From: Mimachlamys varia
Lineage: Eukaryota > Mollusca > Bivalvia > Pectinida > Pectinidae
Direction of reading: 5' to 3'
Assembly: GCA_947623455.1 (NCBI GenBank)
Contig: OX392529.1
Location: 1,240,001-1,304,000, forward strand
DNA length: 64,000 nucleotides
In this document: one piece after another, positions 1,369-54,152 of the stretch
Position numbering within the stretch: position 1 is the stretch's first letter
Layout of the letters: each line of letters begins with the position of its first letter
Notes under the pieces: model-generated
Told to the model about the DNA's origin: nothing
Database searches by the model: none
Seen by the model: only the letters and a program-made list of their open reading frames with translations
Translations under genes and position numbers: made by a program

Positions 1369-4300
1369 CCTTCCCTAGTATCCCCCAATCAATGTAGTTC
1401 TGTATCATAGATCCTTCCCTAGTATCCCCCAATCAATGTAGTTCTGTATCATAGATCCTTCCCTAGTATCCCCCAATCAATGTAGTTCTGTATCATAGAT
1501 CCTTCCCTAGTATCACCCGACCAATGTAGTTCTGTATCATAGATCCTTCCCTAGTATCACCCAATCAATGTAGTTCTGTATCATAGATCCTTCCCTAGTA
1601 TCACCCAATCAATGTAGTTCTGTATCATAGATCCTTCCCTAGTATCACCCAATCAATGTAGTTCTGTATCATAGATCCTTCCCTAGTATCCCCCAATCAA
1701 TGTAGTTCTGTACCATAGATCCTTCCCTAGTATCACCTAATCAATGTAGTTCTGTATCATAGATCCTTCCCTAGTATCCCCCAATCAATGTAGTTCTGTA
1801 TCATAGATCCTTCCCTAGTATCCCCCAATCAATGTAGTTCTGTATCATAGATCCTTCCCTAGTATCCCCCAATCAATGTAGTTCTGTATCATATATCCTT
1901 CTTTAGTATCACACAATCAATGTAGTTCTGTATCATAGATCCTTCCCTAGTATCCCCCAATCAATGTAGTTCTGTACCATATATCCTTCCCTAGTATTCC
2001 CCAATCAATGTAGTTCTGTATCATAGATCCTTCCCTAGTATCACCCAATCAATGTAGCTCTGTACCATAGATCCTTCCCTAGTATCACCCAATCAATGTA
2101 GTTCTGTATCATAGATCCTTCCCTAGTATCACCCAATCAATGTAGTTCTGTATCATAGATCCTTCCCTAATATCCCCCAATCAATGTAGTTCTGTATCAT
2201 AGATCCTTCCCTAGTATCCCCCAATCAATGTGGTTCTGTATCATAGATCCTTCCATAGTATCCCCCAATCAATGTAGTTCTGTACCATAGATCCTTCCCT
2301 AGTATCACCCAATCAATGTAGTTCTGTACCATATATCCTTCCCTAGTATCACCCAATCAATGTAGTTCTGTATCATAGATCCTTCCCTAGTATCACCCAA
2401 TCAATGTAGTTCTGTATCATAGATCCTTCCCTAGTATCACCCTATCAATGTAGTTCTGTACCATAGATCCTTCCATAGTATCCCCCAATCAATGTAGTTC
2501 TGTATCATAGATCCTTCCCTAGTATCCCCCAATCAATGTAGTTCTGTATCATAGATCCTTCCTTAGTATCACTCAATCAATGTAGTTCTGTATCATAGAT
2601 CCATCCCTAGTATCACCCAATCAATGTAGTTCTGTACCATAGATCCTTCCCTAGTATCCCCCAATCAATGTAGTTCTGTATCATAGATCCTTCCTTAGTA
2701 TCACTCAATCAATGTAGTTCTGTATCATAGATCCATCCCTAGTATCACCCTATCAATGTAGTTCTGTACCATAGATCCTTCCATAGTATCACCCAATCAA
2801 TGTAGTTCTGTATCATAGATCCTTCCCTAGTATCCCCCAATCAATGTAGTTCTGTATCATAGATCCTTCCCTAGTATCCCCCAATCAATGTAGTTCTGTA
2901 TCATAGATCCTTCCCTAGTATCACCCAATCAATGTAGTTCTGTACCATAGATCCTTCCCTAGTATCCCCCAATCAATGTAGTTCTGTATCATAGATCCTT
3001 CCCTAGTATCACCCTATCAATGTAGTTCTGTACCATAGATCCTTCCCTAGTATCGCCCAATCAATGTAGTTCTGTAACATAGATCCTTCCCTAGTATCAC
3101 CCAATCAATGTGGTTCTGTATCATAGATCCTTCCCTAGTATCCCCCAATCAATGTGGTTCTGTATCATAGATCCTTCCATAGTATCCCCCAATCAATGTA
3201 GTTCTCTATCATAGATCCTTCCCTAGTATCACCCAATCAATGTAGTTCTGTATCATAGATCCTTCCCTAGTATCACCCTATCAATGTAGTTCTGTATCAT
3301 AGATCCATCCCTAGTATCACTCAATCAATGTAGTTCTGTATCATAGATCCTTCCCTAGTATCCCCCAATCAATGTAGTTCTGTATCATAGATCCTTCCCT
3401 AGTATCACCCTATCAATGTAGTTCTGTACCATAGATCCTTCCCTAGTATCGCCCAATCAATGTAGTTCTGTATCATAGATCCTTCCCTAGTATCACCCAA
3501 TCAATGTAGTTCTGTACCATAGATCCTTCCCTAGTATCACCCAATCAATGTAGTTCTGTATCATAGATCCTTCCATAGTATCTCCCAATCAATGTAGTTC
3601 TGTATCATAGATCCTTCCCTAGTATCACCCAATCAATGTAGTTCTGTACCATAGATCCTTCCCTAGTATCACCCAATCAATGTAGTTCTGTATCATAGAT
3701 CCTTCCCTAGTATCTCCCAATCAATGTAGTTCTGTATCATAGACCCTTCCCTAGTATCACCCAATCAATGTAGTTCTGTACCATAGATCCTTCTCTAGTA
3801 TCACCCAATCAATGTAGTTCTGTACCATAGATCCTTCCCTAGTATCACCCAATCAATGTAGTTCTGTATCATAGATCCTTCCCTAGTATCTCCCAATCAA
3901 TGTAGTTCTGTATCATAGACCCTTCCCTAGTATCACCCAATCAATGTAGTTCTGTACCATAGATCCTTCCCTAGTATCACCCAATCAATGTAGTTCTGTA
4001 TCATAGATCCTTCCCTAGTATCACCCAATCAATGTAGTTCTGTACCATATATCCTTCCCTAGTATCACCCAATCAATGTAGTTCTGTATCATAGATCCTT
4101 CTCTAGTATCACCCAATCAATGTAGTTCTGTATCATATATCCTTCCCTAGTATCACCCTATCAATGTAGTTCTGTATCATAGATCCTTCTCTAGTATCAC
4201 CCAATCAATGTAGTTCTGTATCATAGATCCTTCCCTAATATCACCCTATCAATGTAGTTCTGTATCATAGATCCTTCCCTAGTATCACCCAATCAATGTA

Positions 4301-7300
4301 GTTCTGTATCATAGATCCTTCCCTAGTATCACCCAATCAATGTAGTTCTGTATCATAGATCCTTCCCTAGTATCACCTAATCAATGCAGTTCTGTACCAT
4401 AGATCCTTCCCTAGTATCACCCAATCAATGTAGTTCTGTACCATAGATCCTTCCCTAGTATCACCCAATCAATGTAGTTCTGTACCATAGATCCTTCCCT
4501 AGTATCACCCAATCAATGTAGTTCTGTACCATAGATCCTTCCCTAGTATCCCCCAATCAATGTAGTTCTGTATCATAGATCCTTCCCTAGTATCCCCCAA
4601 TCAATGTAGTTCTGTATCATAGATCCTTCCCTAGTATCACCCAATCAATGTAGTTCTGTATCATAGATCCCTCCCTAGTATCCCCAATCAATGTGGTTCT
4701 GTATCATAGATCCTTCCCTAGTATCCCCCAATCAATGTGGTTCTGTATCATAGATCCTTCCCTAGTATCCCCCAATCAATGTGGTTCTGTATCATAGATC
4801 GTTCCCTAGTATCCCCCTATCAATGTGGTTCTGTATCATAGATCCTTCCCTAGTATCCCCCAATCAATGTAGTTCTGTATCATAGATCCTTCCCTAGTAT
4901 CACCCTATCAATGTAGTTCTGTATCATAGATCCTTCCCTAGTATCACCCAATCAATGTAGTTCTGTATCATAGATCCTTCCCTAGTATCCCCCTATCAAT
5001 GTAGTTCTGTATCATAGATCCTTCTCTAGTATCACCCTATCAATGTAGTTCTGTATCATAGATCCTTCCCTAGTATCACCCAATCAATGTAGTTATGTAT
5101 CATAGATCCTTCCTTAGTATCACCCAATCAATGTAGTTATGTATCATAGATCCTTCCCTAGTATCCCCCAATTAATGTAGTTCTGTACCATAGATCCTTC
5201 CCTAGTATCCCCCAATCAAATAGTTCTGTATCATAGATCCTTCCCTAGTATCACCCAATCAATGTAGTTATGTATCATATATCCTTCCTTAGTATCACCC
5301 AATCAATGTAGTTCTGTACCATAGATCCTTCCCTAGTATCCCCCAATCAATGTGGTTCTGTACCATATATCCTTCCCTAGTATCCCCCAATCAATGTGGT
5401 TCTGTATCATAGATCCTTCCATAGTATCCCCCAATCAATGTAGTTCTGTACCATAGATCCTTCCCTAGTATCACCCAATCAATGTAGTTCTGTACCATAG
5501 ATCCTTCCCTAGTATCCCCCAATCAATGTAGTTCTGTATCATAGATCCTTCCCTAGTATCACCCAATCAATGTAGTTCTGTATCATAGATCCTTCCCTAG
5601 TATCACCCAATCAATGTAGTTCTGTACCATAGATCCTTCCCTAGTATCACCCAATCAATGTAGTTCTGTATCATAGATCCTTCCCTAGTATCCCCCAATC
5701 AATGTAGTTCTGTATCATAGATCCTTCCCTAGTATCACCCAATCAATGTAGTTCTGTATCATAGATCCTTCCCTAGTATCCCCCAATCAATGTAGTTCTG
5801 TATCATAGATCCATCCCTAGTATCACCCAATCAATGTAGTTCTGTACCATAGATCCTTCCCTAGTATCACCCAATCAATGTAGTTCTGTATCATAGATCC
5901 TTCCCTAGTATCCCCCAATCAATGTAGTTCTGTATCATAGATCCTTCCCTAGTATCACCCAATCAATGTAGTTCTGTACCATAGACCCTTCCCTAATACC
6001 ACCCAATCAATGTAGTTCTGTACCAAAAATCTTTTCTAGTATCACCCAATCAATGTGGTTCTGTATCATAGATCCTTCCCTAGTATCACCCAATCAATGT
6101 AGTTCTGTACCATAGATCCTTCCCTAGTATCCCCCAATCAATGTAGTTCTGTATCATAGATCCTTCCCTAGTATCCCCCAATCAATGTAGTTCTGTATCA
6201 TAGATCCTTCCCTAGTATCCCCCAATCAATGTAGTTCTGTATCATAGATCCTTCCCTAGTATCCCCCAATCAAATAGTTCTGTATCATAGATCCTTCCCT
6301 AGAATCCCCCAATCAATGTAGTTCTGTATCATAGATCCTTCCCTAGTATCACCCAATCAATGTAGTTCTGTATCATAGATCCTTCCCTAGTATCCCCCAA
6401 TCAATGTAGTTCTGTATCATAGATCCTTCCCTAGTATCCCCCAATCAATGTAGTTCTGTATCATAGATCCTTCCCTAGTATCACCCAATCAATGTAGTTC
6501 TGTACCATAGATCCTTCCCTAGTATCCCCCAATCAATGTAGTTCTGTATCATAGATCCTTCCCTAGTATCACCTAATCAATGTAGTTCTGTATCATAGAT
6601 CCTTCCCTAGTATCTCCCAATCAATGTAGTTCTGTATCATAGATCCCTCCCTAGTATCCCCCAATCAATGTGGTTCTGTATCATAGATCCTTCCCTAGTA
6701 TCACCCAATCAATGTGGTTCTGTATCATAGATCCTTCCCTAGTATCCCCCAATCAATGTGGTTCTGTATCATAGATCCTTCCCTAGTATCCCCCTATCAA
6801 TGTGGTTCTGTACCATAGATCCTTCCCTAGTATCCCCCAATCAATGTAGTTCTGTATCATAGATCCTTCCCTAGTATCACCCTATCAATGTAGTTCTGTA
6901 TCATAGATCCTTCCCTAGTATCCCCCAATCAAATAGTTCTGTATCATAGATCCTTCCCTAGAATCCCCCAATCAATGTAGTTCTGTATCATAGATCCTTC
7001 CCTAGTATCACCCAATCAATGTAGTTCTGTATCATAGATCCTTCCCTAGTATCCCCCAATCAATGTAGTTCTGTACCATAGATCCTTCCCTAGTATCCCC
7101 CAATCAATGTAGTTCTGTATCATAGATCCTTCCCTAGTATCCCCCAATCAAATAGTTCTGTATCATAGATCCTTCCCTAGTATCCCCCAATCAAATAGTT
7201 CTGTATCATAGATCCTTCCCTAGAATCCCCCAATCAATGTAGTTCTGTATCATAGATCCTTCCCTAGTATCACCCAATCAATGTAGTTCTGTATCATAGA

Positions 7301-10300
7301 TCCTTCCCTAGTATCCCCCAATCAATGTAGTTCTGTACCATAGATCCTTCCCTAGTATCACCCAATCAATGTAGTTCTGTATCATAGATCCTTCCCTAGT
7401 ATCACCCAATCAATGTAGTTCTGTACCATAGATCCTTCCCTAGTATCCCCCAATCAATGTGGTTCTGTATCATAGATCCTTCCCTAGTATCCCCCAATCA
7501 ATGTAGTTCTGTATCATAGATCCTTCCCTAGTATCACCCAATCAATGTAGTTCTGTATCATAGATCCTTCCCTAGTATCACCCAATCAATGTAGTTCTGT
7601 ATCATAGATCCTTCCCTAGTATCTCCCAATCAATGTAGTTCTGTATCATAGATCCCTCCCTAGTATCCCCCAATCAATGTGGTTCTGTATCATAGATCCT
7701 TCCCTAGTATCACCCAATCAATGTGGTTCTGTATCATAGATCCTTCCCTAGTATCCCCCTATCAATGTGGTTCTGTACCATAGATCCTTCCCTAGTATCC
7801 CCCAATCAATGTAGTTCTGTATCATAGATCCTTCCCTAGTATCACCCTATCAATGTAGTTCTGTATCATAGATCCTTCCCTAGTATCACCAAATCAATGT
7901 AGTTCTGTATCATAGATCCTTCCCTAGTATCACCCAATCAATGTAGTTCTGTATCATAGATCCTTCCCTAGTATCACCCAATCAATGTAGTTCTGTACCA
8001 TAGATCCTTCCCTAGTATCACCCAATCAATGTAGTTCTGTATCATAGATCCTTCCCTAGTATCCCCCAATCAATGTAGTTCTGTACATGTACCATAGATC
8101 CTTCCCTAGTATCACCCAATCAATGTAGTTCTGTATCATAGATCCTTCCCTAGTATCCCCCTATCAATGTAGTTCTGTACCATAGATCCTTCCCTAGTAT
8201 CACCCTATCAATGTAGTTCTGTATCATAGATCCTTCCCTAGTATCACCCAATCAATGTAGTTCTGTATCATAGATCCCTCCCTAGTATCACCCAATCAAT
8301 GTAGTTCTGTACCATAGATCCTTCCCTAGTATCACCCAATCAATGTAGTTCTGTATCATAGATCCTTCCCTAGTATCACCCTATCAATGTAGTTCTGTAT
8401 CATAGATCCTTCCCTAGTATCCCCCAATCAATGTAGTTCTGTATCATAGATCCTTCCCTAGTATCACCTAATCAATGTAGTTCTGTATCATATATCCTTC
8501 CCTAGTATCACCCAATCAATGTAGTTCTGTACCATAGATCCTTCCCTAGTATCCCCCAATCAATGTAGTTCTGTATCATAGATCCTTCCCTAGTATCCCC
8601 CAATCAATGTAGTTCTGTATCATAGATCCTTCCCTAGTATCCCCCAATCAATGTAGTTCTGTATCATAGATCCTTCCCTAGTATCCCCCAATCAATGTGG
8701 TTCTGTACCATAGATCCTTCCCTAGTATCCCCCAATCAATGTAGTTCTGTATCATAGATCCTTCCCTAGTATCCCCCAATCAATGTAGTTCTGTATCATA
8801 GATCCTTCCCTAGTATCCCCCAATCAATGTAGTTCTGTATCATAGATCCTTCCCTAGTATCCCCCAATCAATGTAGTTCTGTATCATAGATCCTTCCCTA
8901 GTATCACCCAATCAATGTAGTTCTGTACCATAGATCCTTCCCTAGTATCCCCCAATCAATGTAGTTCTGTACCATAGATCCTTCCCTAGTATCCCCCAAT
9001 CAATGTAGTTCTGTATCATAGATCCTTCCCTAGTATCACCCAATCAATGTAGTTCTGTATCATAGATCCTTCCCTAGTATCACCCAATCAATGTAGTTCT
9101 GTATCATAGATCCTTCCCTAGTATCCCCCAATCAATGTAGTTCTGTATCATAGATCCTTCCCTAGTATCCCCCAATCAATGTAGTTATGTATCATATATC
9201 CTTCCCTAGTATCACCCTATCAATGTAGTTCTGTATCATAGATCCTTCCCTAGTATCCCCCAATCAATGTAGTTCTGTATCATAGATCCTTCCCTAGTAT
9301 CACCCTATCAATGTAGTTCTGTACCATAGATCCTTCCCTAGTATCACCCAATTAATGTAGTTCTGTATCATAGATCCTTCCCTAGTATCACCCAATCAAT
9401 GTAGTTCTGTATCATAGATCCTTCCCTAGTATCCCCCAATCAATGTAGTTCTGTATCATAGATCCTTCCCTAGTATCACCCAATCAATGTAGTTCTGTAC
9501 CATAGATCCTTCCCTAGTATCCCCCAATCAATGTAGTTCTGTATCATAGATCCTTCTCTAGTATCCCCCAATCAATGTAGTTCTGTATCATATATCCTTC
9601 CCTAGTATCCCCCAATCAATGTAGTTCTGTATCATAGATCCTTCCCTAGTATCACCCAATCAATGTAGTTCTGTATCATAGATCCTTCCCTAGTATCACC
9701 CAATCAATGTAGTTCTGTATCATAGATCCTTCCCTAGTATCACCCAATCAATGTAGTTCTGTATCATAGATCCTTCCCTAGTATCACCCAATCAATGTAG
9801 TTCTGTACCATATATCCATCCCTAGTATCACCCAATCAATGTGGTTCTGTATCATAGATCCTTCCCTAGTATCACCCAATCAATGTAGTTCTGTATCATA
9901 GATCCTTCCCTAGTATCACCCAATCAATGTAGTTCTGTACCATATATCCATCCCTAGTATCACCCAATCAATGTAGTTCTGTATCATAGATCCTTCCCTA
10001 GTATCACCCAATCAATGTAGTTCTGTATCATAGATCCTTCTCTAGTATCACCCAATCAATGTAGTTCTGTATCATATATCCTTCCCTAGTATCACCCTAT
10101 CAATGTAGTTCTGTATCATAGATCCTTCTCTAGTATCACCCAATCAATGTAGTTCTGTATCATAGATCCTTCCCTAATATCACCCTATCAATGTAGTTCT
10201 GTATCATAGATCCTTCCCTAGTATCACCCAATCAATGTAGTTCTGTATCATAGATCCTTCCCTAGTATCACCCAATCAATGTAGTTCTGTATCATAGATC

Positions 10301-13300
10301 CTTCCCTAGTATCACCTAATCAATGCAGTTCTGTATCATAGATCCTTCCCTAGTATCACCCAATCAATGTAGTTCTGTACCATATATCCTTCCCTAGTAT
10401 CCCCCAATCAATGTAGTTCTGTATCATAGATCCTTCCCTAATATCACCCAATCAATGTAGTTCTGTACCAAAAATCTTTTCTAGTATCACCCAATCAATG
10501 TAGTTCTGTATCATAGATCCTTCCCTAGTATCTCCCAATCAATGTAGTTCTGTATCATAGATCCTTCCCTAGTATCCCCCAATCAATGTAGTTCTGTATC
10601 ATAGATCCTTCCCTAGTATCCCCCAATCAAATAGTTCTGTATCATAGATCCTTCCCTAGAATCCCCCAATCAATGTAGTTCTGTATCATAGATCCTTCCC
10701 TAGTATCCCCCAATCAATGTAGTTCTGTATCATAGATCCTTCCCTAGTATCACCCAATCAATGTAGTTCTGTATCATAGATCCTTCCCTAGTATCACCCA
10801 ATCAATGTAGTTCTGTACCATAGATCCTTCCCTAGTATCTCCCAATCAATGTAGTTCTGTACCATAGTTCCTTCTCTAGTATCACCCAATCAATGTAGTT
10901 CTGTATCATAGATCCTTCCCTAGTATCACCCAATCAATGTAGTTCTGTACCATAGATCCTTCCCTAGTATCACCCAATCAATGTGGTTCTGTATCATAGA
11001 TCCTTCCCTAGTATCACCCTATCAATGTAGTTCTGTACCATAGATCCTTCCCTAGTATCACCCAATCAATGTAGTTCTGTACCATAGATCCTTCCCTAGT
11101 ATCACCCAATCAATGTAGTTCTGTATCATAGATCCTTCCCTAGTATCACCCAATCAATGTAGTTCTGTATCATAGATCCTTCCCTAGTATCACCCAATCA
11201 ATGTAGTTCTGTATCATAGACCCTTCCCTAGTATCACCCAATCAATGTAGTTCTGTATCATAGACCCTTCCCTAGTATCACCCAATCAATGTGGTTCTGT
11301 ATCATAGATCCTTCCCTAGTATCACCCTATCAATGTAGTTCTGTATCATAGATCCTTCCCTAGTATCACCCAATCAATGTGGTTCTGTATCATAGATCCT
11401 TCCCTAGTATCACCCAATCAATGTGGTTCTGTATCATAGATCCTTCCCTAGTATCACCCAATCAATGTAGTTCTGTATCATAGATCCTTCCCTAGTATCC
11501 CCCAATCAATGTAGTTCTGTACCATAGATCCTTCCCTAGTATCACCCAATCAATGTAGTTCTGTATCATAGATCCTTCCCTAGTATCACCCTATCAATGT
11601 GGTTCTGTATCATAGATCCTTCCCTAGTATCCCCCAATCAATGTAGTTCTGTATCATAGATCCTTCCCTAGTATCACCCAATCAATGTAGTTCTGTATCA
11701 TAGATCCTTCCCTAGTATCCCCCAATCAATGTGGTTCTGTATCATAGATCCTTCCCTAGTATCCCCCAATCAATGTAGTTCTGTACCATAGATCCTTCCC
11801 TAGTATCACCCAATCAATGTAGTTCTGTATCATAGATCCTTCCCTAGTATCACCCTATCAATGTGGTTCTGTATCATAGATCCTTCCCTAGTATCCCCCA
11901 ATCAATGTAGTTCTGTATCATAGATCCTTCCCTAGTATCACCCTATCAATGTAGTTCTGTACCATAGATCCTTCCCTAGTATCACCCAATCAATGTAGTT
12001 CTGTACCATAGTTCCTTCTCTAGTATCACCCAATCAATGTAGTTCTGTATCATAGATCCTTCCCTAGTATCACCCTATCAATGTAGTTCTGTACCATAGA
12101 TCCTTCCCTAGTATCACCCAATCAATGTAGTTCTGTACCATAGTTCCTTCTCTAGTATCACCCAATCAATGTAGTTCTGTACCATAGTTCCTTCTCTAGT
12201 ATCACCTAATCAATGTAGTTCTGTATCATAGACCCTTCCCTAGTATCCCCCAATCAATGTGGTTCTGTACCATAGACCCTTCCCTAGTATCACCCAATCA
12301 ATGTAGTTCTGTACCATAGATCCTTCCCTAGTATCCCCCAATCAATGTGGTTCTGTATCATAGATCCTTCCCTAGTATCCCCCAATCAATGTAGTTCTGT
12401 ACCATAGATCCTTCCATAGTATCACCCAATCAATGTAGTTCTGTATCATAGATCCTTCCCTAGTATCACCCAATCAATGTGGTTCTGTATCATAGATCCT
12501 TCCCTAGTATCACCCAATCAATGTAGTTCTGTACCATAGATCCTTCCCTAGTATCCCCCAATCAATGTAGTTCTGTATCATAGATCCTTCCCTAGTATCC
12601 CCCAATCAATGTAGTTCTGTACCATAGATCCTTCCCTAGTATCACCCAATCAATGTAGTTCTGTATCATAGATCCTTCCCTAGTATCACCCAATCAATGT
12701 GGTTCTGTATCATAGATCCTTCCCTAGTATCACCCAATCAATGTAGTTCTGTATCATAGATCCTTCCCTAGTATCCCCCAATCAATGTAGTTCTGTATCA
12801 TAGATCCTTCCCAAGTATCACCCAATCAATGTAGTTCTGTATCATAGATCCTTCCCTAGTATCACCCGATCAATGTAGGTCTGTATCATAGATCCTTCCC
12901 TAGTATCACCCAATCAATGTAGTTCTGTATCATAGATCCTTCCCTAGTATCACCCTATCAATGTAGTTCTGTATCATAGATCCTTCCCTAGTATCACCCA
13001 ATCAATGTAGTTCTGTATCATAGATCCTTCCCTAGTATCTCCCAATCAATGTAGTTCTGTATCATAGACCCTTCCCTAGTATCACCCAATCAATGTGGTT
13101 CTGTATCATAGATCCTTCCCTAGTATCACCCAATCAATGTAGTTCTGTATTATAGATCCTTCCCTAGTATCCCCCAATCAATGTAGTTCTGTATCATAGA
13201 CCCTTCCCTAGTATCACCCAATCAATGTGGTTCTGTATCATAGATCCTTCCCTAGTATCACCCAATCAATGTAGTTCTGTATCATAGATCCTTCCCTAGT

Positions 13301-13576
13301 ATCTCCCAATCAATGTAGTTCTGTATCATAGACCCTTCCCTAGTATCACCCAATCAATGTGGTTCTGTATCATAGATCCTTCCCTAGTATCCCCCAATCA
13401 ATGTAGTTCTGTATCATAGACCCTTCCCTAGTATCACCCAATCAATGTAGTTCTGTATCATAGACCCTTCCCTAGTATCACCCAATCAATGTAGTTCTGT
13501 ATCATAGATCCTTCCCTAGTATCACCCATCAAATAGTTCTGTATCATAGATCCTTCCCTAGTATCCCCCAATCAAT
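1369..13576. repeat. 44-bp minisatellite, about 277 copies
   Basis: A single uninterrupted head-to-tail array of a 44-bp unit, recognised by ccttccctagtatc, caatcaatgtag and ttctgtatcatagat. Most units differ only at a few recurrent positions: cccccaa/cacccaa/caccctat, tagtt/tggtt, and tatcat/taccat. A 43-bp variant (caatcaaatagtt) recurs near 5214, 6268, 6930, 7150, 7190 and 10628, and is often followed by a unit reading ctagaatccc. One unit near 8088 carries a 6-bp insertion (catgta). The period is not a multiple of three and stops are frequent, so no protein is implied. The array ends in a short (atca)n slip at 13570-13585. Confidence 0.97.
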
Positions 13577-19490: not shown

Positions 19491-20239
19491 CAACATGAAA
19501 CCTCAATTTACAATTAAATCTGTAATATCACTGTTGATCAACACATAAAACGACTTTATCATATCTTGTGTCACAATCAATATTAAACATAAAATCCCTG
19601 GACAATTTGTGATTTTTTTTATATATCTCAAAATGCAAAATCCATATAATTAGTGTGCAAATAAAATTTAAACAATCAAATGGCTTTATTTAGAATTCTA
19701 TGCATAAATAATACTACATATACAATACAACATTTACCTGATCTATTCTTTTTACAGATAACAATTAAGAGAAATTAAATGTACCTAAGTTATTAGATTC
19801 TGCTGTGCTGTGTCTGTGGAGTATCTATGTCTTGTATATCCTGTTATTATTTAGGCCTATACCTCAGGAACAGACATCAACTTTTCAATCAAATCACCAG
19901 TCTCATCCTCAAACACAATCTTTATAATCATAAATCTTTCTTATCATCAAGTGTTCCATGCTGTTCTGATGAAGGTCCATTCATCTTCGTTTTCTATTTA
20001 CTGCAAGTTTTTATTTATTACACAGACACTTTGTCAGGTTTTACCTCACCAATACATCATCTCAAAGAAAAAAAAGATATCTTGTATTACGATATTTCCA
20101 ATAAGGAGTTAGAAACTTTTCCATCAAAATGTGTTACTAGGCAGTATGACATCAGAAATACTTTAAACAATTTCTCTGGAGTCTAATAAAAGTAACAAAT
20201 TGAAACATGTCAGACACAAAAGTTGGTCAGTCAAACGCA
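19491..20239. other. Single-copy stretch, no gene recognised
   Basis: AT-rich sequence before the 57-bp array. A 119-codon plus-strand frame at 19827-20186 has no recognisable domain and no supporting neighbours. I treat it as chance. Confidence 0.5.
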
Positions 20240-22196
20240 AGGAACTGCCAAACAGAAACAACACAAGCAGCCAACAAACCAGATCTTACTATCACAGGGA
20301 ACTACCAAACAAACAGAAATAACACTAGCAGCCAACAAACCCGATCTTACTATCACAGGGAACTACCAAACAGAAATAAAACTAGCAGCCAACAAACCAG
20401 ATCTAACTGTCACAGGGAACTGCCAAACAGAAATAACACAAGCAGCCAACAAACCAGATCTAACTTTCACAGGGAACTGCAAAACAGAAATAACACAAGC
20501 AGCCAACAAACCAGATCTAACTATCACAGGGAACTGCCAAACAGAAATAACACTAGCAGTCAACAAACCAGATCTAACTATCACAGGGAACTGCCAAACA
20601 GAAATAACACTAGCAGCCAGCAAACCAGATCTTACTATCACAGGGAAGTACCAAACAGAAATAACACTAGCAGCCAGCAAACCAGATCTTACTATCACAG
20701 GGAAGTACCAAACAGAAATAACACAAGCATCCAACAAACCAGATCTAACTGTCACAGGGAACTACCAAACAGAAATAACACAAGCAGCCAACAAACCAGA
20801 TCTTACTGTCACAGGGAACTACCAAACAGAAATAACACAAGCAGCCAACAAACCAGATCTAACTGTCACAGGGAACTACCAAACAGAAATAACACAAGCA
20901 GCCAACAAACCAGATCTAACTGTCACAGGGAACTACCAAACAGAAATAACACAAGCAGCCAACAAACCAGATCTAACTGTCACAGGGAACTACCAAACAG
21001 AAATAACACAAGCAGCCAACAAACCAGATCTAACTGTCACAGGGAACTACCAAACAGAAATAACACAAGCAGCCAACAAACCAGATCTAACTGTCACAGG
21101 GAACTACCAAACAGAAATAACACAAGCAGCCAACAAACCAGATCTAACTGTCACAGGGAACTATCAAACAGAAATAACACAAGCAGCCAACAAACCAGAT
21201 CTTACTGTTACAGGGAACTACCAAACAGAAATAACACAAGCAGCCAACAAACCAGATCTTACTATCACAGGGAACTACCAAACAGAAATAACACAAGCAG
21301 CCAACAAACCAGATCTTACTATCACAGGGAACTACCAAACAGAAATAACACAAGCAGCCAACAAACCAGATCTTACTGTCACAGGGAACTACCAAACAAA
21401 CAGAAATAACACTAGCAGCCAACAAACCAGATCTTACTATCACAGGGAACTGCCAAACAGAAATAACACTAGCAGCCAACAAACCAGATCTAACTGTCAC
21501 AGGGAACTGCCAAACAGAAATAACACTAGCAGCCAACAAACCAGATCTTACTACATGTATCACAGGGAACTACCAAACAGAAATAACACAAGCAGCCAAC
21601 AAACCAGATCTTACTATCACAGGGAACTGCCAAACAGAAATAACACTAGCAGCCAACAAACCAGATCTTACTATCACAGGGAACTGCCAAACAGTAATAA
21701 CACTAGCAGCCACCAACCAGATCTTACTATCACAGGGAACTGCCAAACAGCAATAACACCAGCAGCCAAAAAACCAGATCAAACTATCACAGGGAACTAC
21801 CATACAGAAATAACACTAGCAGCCAACAAACCAGATCTAACTATCACAGGGAACTGCCAAACAGAACTAACATCAGCAGCCAACAAACCAGATCTAACTG
21901 TCACAGGGAACTGCCAAACAGAAATAACACAAGCAGCCAACAAACCAGATCTAACTGTCACAGGGAACTGTCAAACAGTAATAACACAAGCAGCCAACAA
22001 ACGAGATCTAACTGTCACAGGGAACTACCAAACAGAAATAACACAAGCAGCCAACAAACCAGATCTAACTGTCACAGGGAACTACCAAACAGAAATAACA
22101 CAAGCAGCCAACAAACCAGATCTAACTGTCACAGGGAACTACCAAACAGTAATAACACAAGCAGCCAACAAACCAGATCTAACTATCACAGGGTTC
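20240..22196. repeat. 57-bp minisatellite, about 34 copies
   Basis: Units carry ccaaacagaaataacac, agcagccaacaaacc, agatct and cacagggaact. The period is 57 bp (19 codons) and the unit is stop-free in several frames, so long frames appear on both strands, the longest 692 codons at 20223-22301. Small indels, such as an extra 4 bp near 20314 and 21396 and a loss near 21713, switch that frame part-way. The common variants tac/tgc and caa/cta would be non-synonymous. I therefore read it as a non-coding array. The central units (about 20756-21180) are the most uniform. Confidence 0.95.
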
Positions 22197-22905
22197 TGTC
22201 TGACATCAGGAGTGTGCCATTCCTATCCTGTTAGAAATTCTATAAACATGTTTCACTGTAACAGTCATAAACTGTCAACCAAATTTCTATTGGCAAATTA
22301 GCCAGTCATATGAAGCTAGCCTCATTCACTTTAAGGACAACAGGATATCTAAAGTTACAGTTATATATGAGGTCGCATAACCATGTTTTAATATAATTTC
22401 AAACAGATAGGACAGGTATGATATATATTAATTACTGACTTAAGGATCTGTACCAATATAGGTGTAGCAGACTCAAAAGTAAATAAAGATATCAAGGAGG
22501 AAGGATGTTGTACCAGAGAGATGTAAATCAATACAATGCATGATACATATATATATATATACCCTGTATCACCAGACCTCTCCAATAGACATCATCAGCC
22601 CCATTCAGGACACCTCCAGATCAACATCTTTCCTCCTTCGTCTTATCTACTGTGTTTACCTGATTAACACCGCAGCCAGCCTGTACTTTGGAATACCTAC
22701 CATCTTTACCAGTTCTAGAGTTCTAGTTTACACACAGTGAACAATAAATGCAATCATTATGGTAATTTTGATACATATTTGTATGCACGTGTGTTTGTGC
22801 CAATTTGTATGTGTGTGTGGGTGTGTATGCATACATGTTTGAATTTATGTATGTGCATGTATTAACCCTTGTGTAATGGGTCACGATATTAATGCAAGTA
22901 TATGC
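22197..22905. other. Single-copy stretch with short microsatellites
   Basis: Contains a (TA)n run at 22547-22561 and a TG-rich tract around 22778-22860. A 66-codon plus-strand frame at 22540-22740 is not recognisable. No exon with family similarity was found. Confidence 0.5.
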
Positions 22906-42087: not shown

Positions 42088-42440
42088 GGGGAACACATAT
42101 ACACCAAGGGGAACACATATACACAGAGGGGAACACATATACACCAAGGGGAACACATATACACAGAGGGGAACACATATACACCAAGGGGAAAACATAT
42201 ACACCAAGGAGAACACATATACACAGAGGGGAATACATATACACCAAGGGGAAAACATATACACCAAGGGAACACATATACACCAAGGGGAACACATATA
42301 CACAGAGGGGAATACATATACACCAAGGGGAAAACATATACACCAAGGAGAACACATATACACAGAGGGGAATACATATACACCAAGGGGAAAACATATA
42401 CACCAAGGGGAAAACATATACACCAAGGGGAACACATATA
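42088..42440. repeat. 20-bp array inserted inside the 14/28-bp array
   Basis: About 17-18 units of ggggaacacatatacaccaa or cacagag variants interrupt the AT-rich array. The block 42088-42349 corresponds to 44097-44358 at a constant 2009-bp offset. The match includes the rare caccaaggag unit and a shared 19-bp deletion unit (ccaagggaac). The right junction is seamless at cacatata/ctgtatc, where both arrays share tatac. Confidence 0.92.
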
Positions 42441-43302
42441 CTGTATCTATTATACAGTATTTATTATAGTGTGTCTATTATACAGTATTTATTACACTGT
42501 ATCTATTATACAGTATTTATTATACTGTATCTATTATACAGTATTTATTATACTGTATCTATTATACAGTATTTATTATAGTGTGTCTATTATACTGTAT
42601 TTATTACACTGTATCTATTATACAGTATTTATTATACTGTATCTATTATACAGTATTTATTATAGTGTGTCTATTATACAGTATTTATTATACTGTATCT
42701 ATTATACAGTATTTATTATACTGTATCTATTATACAGTATTTATTATACTGTATCTATTATACAGTATTTATTATAGTGTGTCTATTATACAGTATTTAT
42801 TATACTGTATCTATTATACATTATTTATTATAGTGTGTCTATTATACAGTATTTATTATACTGTATCTATTATACAGTATTTATTACACTGTATCTATTA
42901 TACAGTATTTATTATACTGTATCTATTATACAGTATTTATTATACTGTGTCTATTATACTGTATTTATTATACTGTATCTATTATACAGTATTTATTATA
43001 CTGTATCTATTATACAGTATTTATTATAGTGTGTCTATTATACAGTATTTATTATAGTGTGTCTATTATACAGTATTTATTACACTGTATCTATTATACA
43101 GTATTTATTATACTGTATCTATTATACAGTATTTATTATACTGTATCTATTATACAGTATTTATTATAGTGTGTCTATTATACTGTACATTTGTATCTAT
43201 CATACTGTGTCTATTATACTGTGTCTATTATACTGCATCTATCATACTGTATCTATCATACTATTTCTATTATAGTATATCTATTATAGTATATCTATCA
43301 TA
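42441..43302. repeat. 14/28-bp AT-rich hairpin array, right part
   Basis: Continuation of the array at 41374-42087, with the same alternating tactgtat/tacagtat units. It degenerates after about 43180 into ctatcatactgt and tatagtatat forms. Confidence 0.93.
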
Positions 43303-43768: not shown

Positions 43769-44528
43769 CTCACCGAGGGGAACACATATACACCAAGGGG
43801 GAAACATATACACCAAGGGGTAAACATATACACCAAGGGGGAAACATATACACCAAGGGGGACACATATATACAAAGGGGAACACATATACACCAAGGGG
43901 AACACATATACACCAAGGGGAACACATATACACCAAGGGGGACACATATACACCAAGGGGAACACATATACACCGAGGGGAACACATATACATCGAGAAG
44001 AACACATATACATCGAGAAGAACACATATACAACAACGGGAACACATATACACCAACGGGAACACATATACACCAAGGGGAACACATATACACCAAGGGG
44101 AACACATATACACCAAGGGGAACACATATACACAGAGGGGAACACATATACACCAAGGGGAACACATATACACAGAGGGGAACACATATACACCAAGGGG
44201 AAAACATATACACCAAGGAGAACACATATACACAGAGGGGAATACATATACACCAAGGGGAAAACATATACACCAAGGGAACACATATACACCAAGGGGA
44301 ACACATATACACAGAGGGGAATACATATACACCAAGGGGAAAACATATACACCAAGGGGAACACATATACACCAAGGGGAACACATAAACACAGAGGGGA
44401 ATACATATACACCAAGGGGAAAACATATACACCAACGGAACACATATACACCGAGAAGAACACATATACACAGAGGGGAACCTTTATACACCAAGGGGAT
44501 ACACCAAGGGGAACACATATACACCAAG
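43769..44528. repeat. 20-bp minisatellite, about 38 copies
   Basis: Units read ggggaacacatatacaccaa, with cacagag, catcgaga and aaacata variants. It is the larger locus of the unit found inside the AT array at 42088-42440. Frames seen on both strands are by-products of 60-bp (three-unit) periodicity. Confidence 0.94.
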
Positions 44529-48240: not shown

Positions 48241-48323
48241 CTCCTGGGGGGGAACATCAAATGAAACCGTTCTCAAATCCACTTTAGTGTAGCTCTCTAT
48301 GCATGGAAGTACAAAAAATATAC
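48241..48323 (-). CDS. STOM: Stomatin-family exon 4 (SPFH/PHB continuation)
   Basis: The acceptor has a good pyrimidine tract, TTTCTTTTTGCTTACAG. The exon starts with the last two bases of the split glycine codon and reads IFFVLPCIESYTK, then VDLRTVSFDVPPQE, in phase with exon 3. It ends in phase 0 at GAG/GTAAGT (GT at 48240-48239). In relatives the next residues are roughly an ILTKDSV block; I searched all unique islands to the left on the minus strand and did not find it. Confidence 0.95.
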
Positions 48324-51300
48324 CTGTAAGCAAAAAGAAATTGGACGCAATTATGTTCAACAATTATACCACTGTAACATGGTCAAATGAAACTAATTTA
48401 TAAAGACATTAGGGATTGAGGATGACCTTTAAGATATATACAAATTTCTGTGAAACACTATCTCACATCAGCATAGAAATAATTCAGAACCATGCCGGCA
48501 ATCACAGAGAGGGAAACCAGATTTATTTTACTACAACATATTCTACAAAATATTGAATAAAGGACAAAAGGCCTGCACAGCTGTGGATCGGCAGGCATTT
48601 TACAAAGACTACAATAATTTCCGAGACCAAGTCTGTTAGCTCTCCCAAAGACTGGTCCGATTCTCCCCAAAACAGGAAAGTAGTACAGGCTGATTTAGTT
48701 GTCCGTCAGATATAGCTTTCCTGCCATATTTCTGTCGCTAGAATGCTGCAACAATTTTAGATGCAAAACTGAAAATCTGCCCCCAAAACACACATCTAGC
48801 TACACTACATGTTGGTTCCAAAGATTGATGATAGAACAGTTCACTTAATTACCAATGATGCAAACAATCCACCAGACTACTGCTTCAATCTCATGATTTC
48901 ATCAAATCTTGAATCTCTTCTAATTCAATGACAGGTTTCATTTGTCTAGTTCAAATATAGTTCAGTTATAGAATGATTAGATAAAAGGTGGCTGAGTTTC
49001 ATCAGGTATAGATTTAAGGCACATATGTGTCTTGGTTCTGTGGAGCTATAAAGATGTTCTGAATGTAAACTATATATACACTATCAGGATATCGCCATGA
49101 ACTACACTATCAGAATATCGCCATGAACTACACTATCAGGATACTACTATCACCATGAACTACGTACACTATTAGAATATCGCCATGAACTACACTATCA
49201 GAATACTACTATCACCATGAACTATACACTATCAGAATATCACCATGAACTACACTATCAGAATACTACTATCACCATGAACTACATTATCAGGATACTA
49301 CTATCACCATGAACTACACTATCAGAATATCACCATGAACTACACTATCAGAATACTACTATCACCATGAACTACATTATCAGAATACTACTATCACCAT
49401 GAACTACATTATCAGGATACTACTATCACCATGAACTACACTATCAGAATACTACTATCACCATGAACTACACTATTAGAATATCGCCATAGCTACACTA
49501 TCAGGATACTACTATCACCATGAACTACAATATCAGAATACTACTATCACCATGAACTACACTATCAGAATACTACTATCACCATGAACTACATTATAAG
49601 GATACTTCTATCACCATGAACTACACTATAAGGATACTGCTATCACCATGAACTACATTATCAGAATACTACTATCACCATGAACTACACTATCAGAATA
49701 CTACTATCACCATGAACTACACTATCAGAATACTACTATCACCATGAACTACATTATCAGAATACTACTATCACCATGAACTACAATATCAGGATACTAC
49801 TATCACCATGAACTACACTATCAGAATACTACTATCACCATGAACTACACTATCAGGATACTTCTATCACCATGAACTACACTATCAGAATACTACTATC
49901 ACCATGAACTACACTATCAGAATACTACTATCACCATGAACTACATTATCAGAATACTACTATCACCATGAACTACAATATCAGGATACTACTATCACCA
50001 TGAACTACACTATCAGAATACTACTATCACCATGAACTACACTATCAGGATATTACTATCACCATGAACTACACTATAAGGATACTGCTATCACTATGTT
50101 CATGTACCTATATGTACCTGGCCCCTTGGCTCCTCCAGATAACAACCGACCCAGCCCGAATATTACCCCTTCATGTACCTACCTGGCCTCTTGGCTCCTC
50201 CAGATAAAAACCGACCCAGCCGGAATATTACCCGTTCATGTACCTACCTGGCCCCTTGGCTCCTCCAGATAAAAACCGACCCAGCCGGAATATTACCCGT
50301 TCATGTACCTACCTGGCCCCTTGGCTCCTCCAGATAACAACCGACCCAGCCGGAATATTACTGCACGTTCAAACTCCTGTACAACCTGTAAGGAAGTAAT
50401 TTTCAGAAGTTACACAATTAATTGTTAGTTGTAGGAATTCCGTACAAGTAAACATGTTGGTTGGTTTGATACACCATATTATTTTGATTCAGTGAGAAAA
50501 AATTATAATAATACACTAAAGGACACTATACTCTGTAATAACTACAAAAACACCTGAATCAGACTTAATTAGACTCACCTTGAGACAGAAGAAGACAGAA
50601 AAGGGCAGTGTGAGCATGACAACAAGGATAGAGAGAATGGTAAGTATCCAGCCACAGCAGCCCAGGCTTCCAGTCTCTTCACCTGTACCTGTAATGTATA
50701 TAAAGGTAAGTTTTCTTACCTTTACCTGTAATTGATAATAAGGTAAGATATCCTTACCTGTACCTGTAACAGAAAAGAAGGTAAGTCATCCTCATCTGTA
50801 CCTGTAACAGATAATATGGTAAGTCATCCTCACCTGTACCTGTAACAGATAATAAGGTAAGTCATCCCCACCTGTACCTGTAATAGATAATAAGGTAAGT
50901 CATCCTCACCTGTACCTGTAATAGATAATAAGGTAAGTCATCCACACCTGTACCTGTAACAGATAATATGGTAAGTCATCCACACCTGTACCTGTAACAG
51001 ATAATAAGGTAAGTCATCCTCACCTGTACCTGTAATAGATAATAAGGTAAGTCATCCTCACCTGTACCTGTAATAGATAATAAGGTAAGTCATCCACACC
51101 TGTACCTGTAACAGATAATAAGGTAAGTCATCCTCACCTGTACCTGTAATAGATAATAAGGTAAGTCATCCTCACCTGTATCTGTAACAGATAATAAGGT
51201 AAGTCATCCACACCTGTACCTGTAATAGATAATAATGTAAGTTATCCTCACCTGTACCTGTAATAGATAATACGGTAAGTCATCCACACCTGTACCTGTA

Positions 51301-54152
51301 ATAGATAATAAGGTAAGTCATCCACACCTGTACCTGTAATAGATAATAATGTAAGTTATCCTCACCTGTACCTGTAATAGATAATACGGTAAGTCATCCA
51401 CATCTGTACCTGTAACAGATAATAAGGTAAGTCATCCACACCTGTACCTGTAATAGATAATAATGTAAGTTATCCTCACCTGTACCTGTAATAGATAATA
51501 CGGTAAGTCATCCACATCTGTACCTGTAACAGATAATAAGGTAAGTCATCCACACCTGTACCTGTAATAGATAATAATGTAAGTTATCCTCACCTGTACC
51601 TGTAATAGATAATGAGGTAAGTCATCCACACCTGTACCTGTAACAGATAATAAGGTAAGTCATCCACACCTGTATCTGTAACAGATAATAAGGTAAGTCA
51701 TCCACACCTGTACCTGTAATAGATAATAATGTAAGTTATCCTCACCTGTACCTGTAATAGATAATGAGGTAAGTCATCCACACCTGTACCTGTAACAGAT
51801 AATAAGGTAAGTCATCCACACCTGTATCTGTAACAGATAATAAGGTAAGTCATCCACACCTGTACCTGTAATAGATAATAATGTAAGTTATCCTTACCTG
51901 TACCTGTAATAGATAATAAGGTAAGTCATCCACACCTGTACCTGTAATAGATAATAAGGTAAGTCATCCTCACCTTTACCTGTAACAGATAATAAGGTAA
52001 GTCATCCTCACCTGTACCTGTAATAGATAATAAGGTAAGTCATCCACACCTTTACCTGTAATAGATAATAAGGTAAGTCATCCACACCTGTACCTGTAAC
52101 AGATAATAAGGTAAGTCATCCACACCTGTACCTGTAACAGATAATAAGGTAAGTCATCCACACCTTTACCTGTAACAGATAATAAGGTAAGTCATCCACA
52201 CCTGTACCTGTAATAGATAATAAGGTAAGTCATCCACACCTGTACCTGTAACAGATAATAAGGTAAGTCATCCTCACCTGTACCTGTAATAGATAATAAG
52301 GTAAGTCGTCCACACCTGTACCTGTAATAGATAATAAGGTAAGTCATCCACACCTGTACCTGTAACAGATAATAAGGTAAGTCATCCTCACCTGTACCTG
52401 TAATAGATAATAAGGTAAGTCATCCACACCTGTACCTGTAACAGATAATAAGGTAAGTCATCCTCACCTGTACCTGTAACAGATAATAAGGTAAGTCATC
52501 CACACCTGTACCTGTAATAGATAATAAGGTAAGTCATCCTCACCTGTACCTGTAACAGATAATAAGGTAAGTCATCCTCACCTTTACCTGTAACAGATAA
52601 TAAGGTAAGTCATCCTCACCTGTACCTGGAGATAAATCTATGACACAATCATATTTACTCGTGGTGTAGTGACAAAATATGACAAGGGAGATAAATCTAT
52701 GACACAATCATATTTACTCTGTTGTAGTGTCAATATGTGACAAGAAGATAAATCTATGACACAATCATATTTACTCGTTGTGTAGTGACAAAATATGACA
52801 AGGGAGATAAATCTATGACACAATTATATTTACCTCCGGTGTAGTGACAATATGTGACAAGGGAGATAAATCTATCAATGACACACTCATATTTAGCACT
52901 TGTGACATTATATGACAAGGGAGATAAATCTATGACACAATTATATTTACCTCCGGTGTAGTGACAATATGTGACAAGGGAGATAAATCTATCAATGACA
53001 CAATCATATTTAGCACTTGTGACATTATATGACAAGGGAGATAAATCTATGACACAATCATATTTACCTCCAGTGCAGTGACAATATGTGACAAGGGAGA
53101 TAAATCTATGACACAATCATATTTACCTCCAGTGCAGTGACAATATGTGACAAGGGAGATAAATCTATGACACAATCATATTTACCCCCGGTGTAGCGAC
53201 AATATGTGACAAGGGAGATAAATCTATGACACAATCGTATTTACCTCCAGTGTAACGACAATTTGTGACAAGGGAGATAAATCTATGACACAATCGTATT
53301 TACCTCCAGTGTAACGACAATTTGTGACAAGGGAGATAAATCTATGACACAATCATATTTACCCCCTGTGTAGCGACAATATGTGACAGGGAGATAAATC
53401 TATGACACAATCATATTTACCCCTGGTGTAGTGACAATATGTGACAAAGGAGATAAATCTATGACACAATCATATTTACCACTTGTGGTGTGACATTATA
53501 TGACAAGGGAGATAAATCTATGACACAATCATATTTACCACTTGTGGTGTGACATTTATAATATGACAAGGGAGATAAATCTATTACACAATCATATTTA
53601 CCACTTGTGGTGTGACATTATATGACAAGGGAGATAAATCTATGACACAATCATATTTACCACTTGTGGTGTGACATTTATAATATGACAAGGGAGATAA
53701 ATCTATTACACAATCATATTTACCACTTGTGGTGTGACATTATATGACAAGGGAGATAAATCTATTACACAATCATATTTACCACTTGTGGTGTGACATT
53801 TATAATATGACAAGGGAGATAAATCTATTACACAATCATATTTACCACTTGTGGTGTGACATTATATGACAAGGGAGATAAATCTATTACACAATCATAT
53901 TTCCCACTTGTGGTGTGACATTATATGACAAGGGAGATAAATCTATGATACAATCATATTTACCACTTGTGGTGTGACATTATATGACAAGGGAGATAAA
54001 TCTATTACACAATCATATTTACCACTTGTGGTGTGACATTATATGACAAGGGAGATAAATCTATGATACCAGACATATTTACCTCCAATGATGCGCACAT
54101 GTTGAGGATCAACATGATGAGCAGCTGTACTGTTATGATCCTGTCTATCCAT
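48241..54152 (-). CDS. STOM: Stomatin-family protein, N-terminal 112 codons in four exons (partial gene)
   Basis: This is the start of an animal stomatin-family gene. Such proteins are monotopic membrane scaffolds that oligomerise in cholesterol-rich membrane and modulate ion channels. The four exons join as 70 + 110 + 73 + 83 nt, 112 codons with matching phases. Residues 1-31 are a hydrophilic N-terminus. Residues 32-60 hold the membrane hairpin with LGCCGWILTIL and the conserved proline in LTLPFS. Residues 61-112 start the SPFH/PHB domain with VVQEFERAVIFRLGRL, SGGAKGPG and VDLRTVSFDVPPQE. Cys35 and Cys58 are at positions where palmitoylated cysteines occur in relatives (inference). The family is usually near 280-300 residues, so well over half is missing to the left. 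Orthology within the family (stomatin, STOML3-like, MEC-2-like) cannot be settled from this part. Confidence 0.93.
48324..49078 (-). other. Single-copy part of stomatin intron 3
   Basis: AT-rich sequence between exon 4 and the 32-bp array. A 70-codon minus-strand frame at 48458-48670 has no stomatin similarity and lies inside the intron, so it is not called. Confidence 0.7.
49079..50095. repeat. 32-bp minisatellite in stomatin intron 3, about 32 copies
   Basis: Units contain accatgaactacactatcag and aatactactatc. Shorter 23-bp units (with aatatcgcc or aatatcacc) occur mostly near the left edge. The array passes directly into the 65-bp exon-derived copies. Confidence 0.95.
50096..50376 (-). 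repeat. 65-bp tandem array made of stomatin exon 3 tail plus donor, 4 copies including the real exon
   Basis: On the minus strand each unit carries the coding text for residues from about IFRLGRL to GAKGPG, followed by a donor-like CCAG/GTAGGT or CCAG/GTACAT. Exon-end equivalents fall at 50313 (the real exon), 50248, 50183 and 50118, exactly 65 bp apart. The copies differ from the exon by changes that would alter residues: the two middle copies read TTTTTA where the exon has TTGTTA (L to F), and the most distal has TTCGGG for TTCCGG (R to G). Splicing to any downstream donor would add 65 nt or more and run into an in-frame TAA shortly after the authentic donor. Confidence 0.93.
50313..50385 (-). 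CDS. STOM: Stomatin-family exon 3 (start of SPFH/PHB domain)
   Basis: Phase-0 start after TTCCTTACAG, reading VVQEFERAVIFRLGRL then LSGGAKGP and the first base of a glycine codon. The donor is CCAG/GTAGGT (GT at 50312-50311). This is the most strongly conserved block of the family. The last part of the exon and its donor are the source, or one member, of the 65-bp tandem copies at 50096-50312. Intron 2 between exons 3 and 2 (50386-50578, 193 bp) is short and free of repeats. Confidence 0.95.
50386..50578 (-). other. Stomatin intron 2 (193 bp)
   Basis: GTGAGT at the 5' end and TTCCTTACAG at the 3' end. It has no tandem repeats, unlike introns 1 and 3. Confidence 0.9.
50579..50688 (-). CDS. 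STOM: Stomatin-family exon 2 (membrane hairpin)
   Basis: Encodes the end of the N-terminus and the membrane hairpin (LGCCGWILTIL, VVMLTLPFSVFFCLK) and ends in phase 0 at AAG/GTGAGT (GT at 50578-50577). The acceptor is ATTACAG/GTACAG/GTGAAG. A second AG 6 nt further in (exon start 50682) would also keep frame and would drop Thr-Gly. The acceptor and the first bases of the exon match the 38-bp unit of the array that starts immediately upstream. Confidence 0.93.
50689..52628 (-). repeat. 38-bp minisatellite derived from the exon 2 acceptor, about 51 copies
   Basis: Read on the minus strand, each unit contains CTATTACAG/GTACAG/GTGAGGA, the same text as the true acceptor and first bases of exon 2 (ATTACAG/GTACAGGTGAAGA), preceded by ACTTACCTT as at the real site. 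The first unit overlaps the exon edge at 50681. Each unit thus carries an acceptor-like CAG, six bases, and a donor-like GTGAGG. On the plus strand most units also contain a consensus donor, AAG/GTAAGT. The period of 38 is not divisible by 3. The array fills the 3' half of intron 1. Confidence 0.95.
52629..54075 (-). repeat. 59-bp minisatellite derived from the exon 1 donor, about 24 copies
   Basis: Read on the minus strand, units contain GGTAAATATGATTGTG and CATAGATTTATCTCCC. The real exon 1 donor region reads TGGAGGTAAATATGTCTGG and is followed by CATAGATTTATCTCCC. Units from about 52820 to 53350 mostly keep CTGGAGGTAAATATG, while those from 53460 to 54040 carry AGTGGTAAATATG and a 62-bp variant with an extra tataa. 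The array fills the 5' half of intron 1 and meets the 38-bp array at about 52628. Confidence 0.93.
54083..54152 (-). CDS. STOM: Stomatin-family exon 1 (start codon exon)
   Basis: ATG occupies 54152-54150 in a strong initiation context (GCGATGG), with an in-frame TAA upstream in the same exon or leader, so this is the likely start. The exon encodes 23 residues beginning MDRQDHNSTA, plus one base of a glycine codon. The donor is GGAG/GTAAATATG, with GT at 54082-54081. The sequence around this donor is the apparent seed of the 59-bp array that fills the adjacent half of intron 1: both contain TGGAGGTAAATATG. Confidence 0.85.

Follow-up and report, generated by a model that had tools for sequence, protein, structure and literature searches.

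How can an intron come to consist of copies of its own two splice-site regions, and which of these copies does the gene use? The question is raised by a stomatin-family gene on the reverse strand of the window, i.e., the whole 64,000-nt stretch of Mimachlamys varia DNA analyzed here (Table 1). The joined exons 1–4 encode a 112-aa peptide that matches the Pfam Band_7 domain and solved stomatins (E = 3.6e-35). Its best named matches are scallop proteins: that of Ylistrum balloti is 95% identical across 75% of the query, and that of Argopecten irradians stands at 87% over residues 1–60 and at 94% in an alignment of the proteins. The N-terminus encoded by exon 1 resembles that of the Ylistrum record P0002 and also that of the Argopecten record P0122, which has a short insertion there. 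Further stomatin exons beyond exon 4 were not found within the 64,000-nt window; hence, intron 4 must be longer than 48 kb unless the gene is interrupted. The record P0002 itself leaves the stomatin sequence directly after exon 3 (GAKGP followed by EFHIEW), the point of departure being the junction that is tandemly copied in the present gene; the gene model may be wrong at this point, or the protein may have an alternative end.

Table 1. Exons, intron and splice-site arrays of the stomatin-family gene (positions in the window; a slash within a motif marks the splice boundary)
Feature	Position	Strand	Description
Exon 1	54083..54152	-	Stomatin CDS nt 1–70; 3′ end ATTGGAG/GTAAAT
Intron 1	50689..54082	-	3394 bp, two tandem arrays
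Array 1	52628..54083	-	TRF: period 59, 24.5 copies, 88% matches; holds donor-equivalents
Array 2	50680..52628	-	TRF: period 38, 51.3 copies, 92% matches; acceptor TTACAG and GT 6 nt on
Exon 2	50579..50688	-	15 nt at 5′ end match array 2 unit at 13 positions
Exon 3	50313..50385	-	Stomatin gene
Array 3	50115..50361	-	65-bp units, 3.8 copies (four copies); exon 3 donor tandemly copied
Exon 4	48241..48323	-	Stomatin gene, last exon located in window

An earlier note on this DNA, made from the letters alone, described intron 1 as almost wholly two arrays, of about 24 units of 59 bp and about 51 of 38 bp, joined near 52628 with no unique sequence between them. Direct reading and TRF bear this out in each respect: the unit anchors are contiguous in both arrays with none skipped, and the two minisatellites abut at 52628/52629 with zero unique sequence separating them (the partial array 2 unit at the meeting point is left out of our unit counts). 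With each array reduced to one unit, the intron would, judging from the unit lengths, measure only about 100–130 bp. No relatives of either unit family were found elsewhere in the window when a family's own array was masked, the best chance match having an E-value of 4.5 for array 1 and array 2 giving none at E 10; units so devoid of relatives leave an introner or transposable origin of the intron unsupported in the window. Searches against Rfam at the gathering threshold and a tRNA scan likewise returned no matches.

The array on the acceptor side preserves the splice motif with particular regularity. TTACAG is kept in all 51 acceptor-equivalents, the real acceptor counted, and AG/GT in 48 of them. 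Further, 48 of the 51 units present a donor-like GT 6 nt past the acceptor, mostly as CAG/GTGAGG or CAG/GTGTGG, a feature that the earlier note overlooked. The array thereby has the appearance of a run of potential back-to-back acceptor/donor (dual-specific) sites. Splice-site strength was scored throughout with approximate matrices, on which all percentiles given here rest. Ranked against single-copy AG sites, the acceptor copies have a median at the 98.1th percentile; the median of the +6 donors, ranked against single-copy GT sites, is at the 99.7th. When acceptor and donor scores are combined, the array 2 unit outscores all others among the 46 unit-strands of the window, and 0.15% of 2000 shuffles reach its value. 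The repeat also enters exon 2, whose opening 15 nt agree with the best unit at 13 positions, which none of 33,784 single-copy 15-mers equals. The homology has faded by 30 nt, where 14 of 30 positions match and 7% of comparison k-mers do as well.

On the donor side the corresponding evidence is weaker. GT is kept in 22 of the 25 donor-equivalents of array 1, the real donor counted, and the unit holding the real donor is 76–95% identical to the 23 other full-length units. The last 8 nt of exon 1 match the unit at seven positions, as do 0.2% of single-copy 8-mers; the signal fades outward, with 1–3% of single-copy k-mers matching as well at 10–20 nt and 19% at 30 nt. Thus, being short and fading past 8 nt, this homology makes the exon 1 side the weaker half of the claim that the tandem duplications took in the splice junctions themselves, a claim that stands by virtue of the homology into exon 2 and, weakly, into exon 1. 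The likeness of the array 1 copies to the true donor region needs a correction of place: exon-like copies (CTGGAG/GTAAAT and CGGAG/GTAAAT) do exist but lie deeper in the array, while the units near exon 1 read CACAAGTG/GTAAAT. With the approximate matrices, the array 1 donors have their median at the 93.2th percentile of single-copy GTs. As a donor, the unit is unexceptional, since 11% of 1000 of its own shuffles reach its score, and its combined acceptor and donor score is reached by 13% of 1000 shuffles.

At exon 3, a third junction has been copied, which was not noticed in the earlier note. The unit of array 3 comprises the final 49 nt of exon 3 and 16 nt of intron, and copies 2–4 are identical to the first at 64, 62 and 57 of 65 positions. 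The donor of the first copy (50312, the real one) and those at 50247 and 50182 read GTAGGT, and that at 50117 reads GTACAT. Each of the later three donors would retain a stop codon, so that the normal protein comes only from the first. The exon 3 donor copies thus show the same process as the arrays of intron 1. Altogether, three of the seven internal stomatin junctions lie inside an array and within 50 bp of its edge (at distances of 1, 8 and 49 bp), and when the array map is rotated through all 64,000 positions, counting the true one, 122 of them reach three junctions; this is a post hoc figure from one gene, with the 50-bp limit chosen after the distances were known. An array of 32-bp units (49078–50098) nearly adjoins the exon 3 copies, lying 16 bp from them, and intron 3 is likewise mostly made of arrays.

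The surroundings of the gene are themselves rich in such sequence, with tandem arrays making up about 73% of the window (46,839 of 64,000 bases). These include a 12-kb array of 44-bp units (1369–13576). At 42088–42441, a 354-bp block made of 20-bp units is embedded in an array of 14-bp units and shares 97% identity with part of a second array of 20-bp units (43771–44528), 1.3–2.4 kb off; it looks as if a piece of one array was copied into another. A further array, of 34 units of 57 bp (20196–22301), lies within a frame open for 701 codons, and this putative frame would encode 19-residue repeats, whose reading shifts halfway through.

Which sites, then, yield the protein? At the exon 1–2 junction, two scallop orthologues agree with the predicted protein (IIGGTGEETGS and IIGGIGEETGS), and the protein length around the junction is equal in the window and in both records, with the residue at the exon 2 edge varying among scallops between T and I. 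An alternative start of exon 2, 6 nt further in, is in frame too (IIGGEETGS). However, both orthologues possess the two residues concerned (IIGG-T/I-G-EETGS), which supports the start at 50688. When each GT donor copy is joined to each acceptor copy (22 × 51 = 1122 pairings), only two pairings are open and in frame, namely the real one and one in which the real donor joins acceptor copy 48. The remaining 1120 are frame-shifted or stopped, and most pairings retain array sequence.

With the approximate matrices, the score of the real exon 2 acceptor is 6.1, tied lowest among the 51 sites, whose copies range from 6.1 to 11.1; as none of the 50 copies falls below the real site, we reject strength as the reason why the outermost acceptor would be used. 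The real exon 1 donor scores 7.1 on the same approximate matrices, equal to the best array 1 copies and exceeded by none of them; hence, strength could help the choice of donor, even as the donor-like sites of array 2 mostly outscore it. Most array 2 units (50680–52628) also carry ACTTACCT, which we take to resemble the 5′ end of U1 snRNA and which is able to pair with the unit's own donor AGGTGAG in a 7-bp hairpin. In units with GTGAGG, the predicted fold is AGGTGAG-GATGA-CTTACCT at −8.9 kcal/mol, and its stability in three unit copies is matched by 1.7% of 300 unit shuffles. Masking of the spare donors by such hairpins was dropped as a mechanism: the real exon 1 donor has a mean unpaired value of 0.24, and the medians are 0.31 among the array 1 copies and 0.28 among the +6 donors of array 2. 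The real donor being as buried as its copies, structure cannot separate the two. In a single comparison, the real acceptor of exon 2, at 0.64, proved more open than its copies, the median of which is 0.36. If RNA confirms this layout, one gene would combine 21 spare GT donors and 50 spare acceptors within a 3.4-kb intron, offering a natural experiment on how the spliceosome picks the outermost site.

Given these features, we consider it very probable that the arrays are mirage-type minisatellites (see below), in which junction-bearing segments were duplicated, amplified and homogenized while the outermost copy still works. Under this proposal, segments of 59, 38 and 65 bp, each holding an existing splice junction, would have been tandemly duplicated, and the duplicates amplified and homogenized through block duplication or unequal exchange in an array-rich region of the genome. 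The exon-abutting copy at either end would have stayed the working splice site, and the donor and acceptor arrays would have come to form all of intron 1. Because the spare copies are all intronic and are removed together with the intron, we infer that their expansion was near neutral; repeat growth tolerated by reason of this intronic position is the most likely account. Messages with a shifted frame or a premature stop are in general destroyed by nonsense-mediated decay. Use of a spare site would almost always give such a frame-shifted or stopped product, which would be expected to meet this fate.

Traces of the amplification are visible within the arrays. Array 2 contains an exact repeat of 219 bp whose copies lie four units apart, and in array 1 an exact repeat of 180 bp recurs at a distance of 122 bp; both point to duplication of multi-unit blocks. 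The earlier note had the intron growing inward from both ends. This fits array 2, where the five units nearest exon 2 have diverged (mean identity 0.81, versus 0.93–0.96 in the remaining blocks). Array 1 shows the reverse, with likeness greatest among the units beside exon 1 (0.953) and lowest among the deepest (0.841), so that the units adjoining exon 1 are probably those most recently amplified. With the two gradients opposed, symmetric inward growth is unsupported. Dyad symmetry of the units was rejected as a driver of amplification, the mean z being 0.07 for 23 consensus units, one of which falls below −1.64.

Other readings of the same structure deserve to be weighed. The minisatellites might have arisen in the intron for unrelated reasons, with their terminal units captured only later as splice sites; such a capture would have moved the exon edges into the arrays. 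With 73% of the window in arrays, an intron and an array must often coincide, and both the modest match of 7 of 8 nt on the exon 1 side and the variation between T and I at the exon 2 edge would sit well with captured sites. Yet each exon 3 copy includes 49 nt of conserved coding sequence, whose simplest source is the exon, and the protein at the exon 1–2 junction is equally long in the window and the two scallop records. Accordingly, we think it quite improbable that the arrays came first, and equally improbable that a capture shifted the exon edges. Nor do we see more than a slim chance that the arrays form a functional device of unproductive splicing, in which competing array sites set the level of correct mRNA. 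The strength of the array 2 sites (98.1th and 99.7th percentile medians for acceptors and +6 donors on the approximate matrices) and the 1120 of 1122 pairings that have no open in-frame product are what such a device would call for, but 25 of the 38 columns of array 2 are invariant across the first 49 of its 51 units, with splice columns not singled out, and the comparable repeats of amphioxus are described as leaving regular splicing undisturbed (PMC3087553).

Array 2 could alternatively represent about 50 back-to-back acceptor/donor sites removed stepwise. Recursive splicing takes out an intron in successive pieces by reusing a donor regenerated at each junction. Here, exon 1 would join any array 2 copy, the +6 donor would be reused, and the cycle would be repeated until exon 2 is reached. 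The +6 donor at exon 2 is weaker than the others (8.0 versus a median of 9.6 on the approximate matrices). As each step through a +6 donor leaves GTACAG, such steps would insert in-frame Thr-Gly pairs, giving IIGG(TG)nEETGS, and added Thr-Gly pairs occur in neither of the two scallop orthologue records. We regard this reading as rather unlikely. Were it true, expansion of the array would be harmless at any length, and a repeat disarmed by its own splice sites would explain the arrays on junctions in such genomes. Finally, long arrays are generally hard to assemble, so that the copy number in intron 1 may be inexact. That an assembly or sequencing artefact multiplied the units is, however, barely conceivable: they carry many distinct substitutions, mix lengths of 59 and 63 bp and diverge in a graded manner toward an edge, none of which is expected from an assembler.

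The earlier note knew of no named class for such an intron; this is mistaken, as tandem repeats across exon–intron boundaries in amphioxus have been named mirages (PMC3087553). They are described from Adh3, with units of 10–72 bp (Canestro 2002, cited in PMC3087553), and from the globin genes BflGb6 and BflGb9. They affect both 5′ and 3′ boundaries, present AG/GT in many copies, leave splicing apparently undisturbed and have copy numbers that are unstable between alleles or tissues, as reported for Adh3, BflGb6 having 3 and 6 units in two haplotypes (PMC3087553). Similar boundary repeats occur in amphioxus PGBD5 (PMC3902484). As in these, the repeat of the present gene crosses the boundary at the exon 3 donor (49 exon nt) and the exon 2 acceptor (13 of 15 nt), with a weak likeness at the exon 1 donor (7 of 8 nt). 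The signals are likewise kept in many but not all copies (GT in 22 of 25, AG/GT in 48 of 51), and homogenized interiors are paired with a diverged edge, here at only one edge per array. In contrast, the host is a scallop rather than a cephalochordate, the intron is filled from both ends by touching arrays, its units number about 75 as compared to 3 and 6 in the BflGb6 haplotypes, and most acceptor units also bear a donor-like site.

Human genes offer partial parallels. UBC and VCX3A contain tandem dual-specific AGGT-type splice sites, once per unit (PMC10809524). The units of array 2 similarly have AGGT with predicted acceptor and donor strength; however, the UBC sites lie in coding sequence at 228-nt intervals, a multiple of 3, whereas array 2 has 38-bp non-coding units and predicted sites. 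The 31-bp VNTR of CBS, c.1444_1467+7(16_21), has a unit that by its name crosses a donor (PMC2630376); it resembles the present arrays in running from exon into intron and differs in concerning a single donor rather than an entire intron. Among the literature matches listed, comprising titles and abstract openings with few subscription papers, boundary-spanning arrays were found in amphioxus and human genes and in no mollusc.

In human paralogues, repeats at exon–intron boundaries may create introns (PMC2812944), and intron gain has been ascribed to tandem duplication of AGGT-bearing segments (Rogers 1989, cited in PMC3087553; PMC4974935). The present duplicated segments also bear splice motifs, a likeness limited to the motifs. 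The locus accords with a view in which tandem duplications are tolerated when they bring splice signals of their own, and in which introns can grow, and perhaps also arise, in this way. By every structural feature checked, the arrays of intron 1 look like mirages, new in host and layout, and would, if confirmed in RNA, extend mirages from lancelets to a mollusc.
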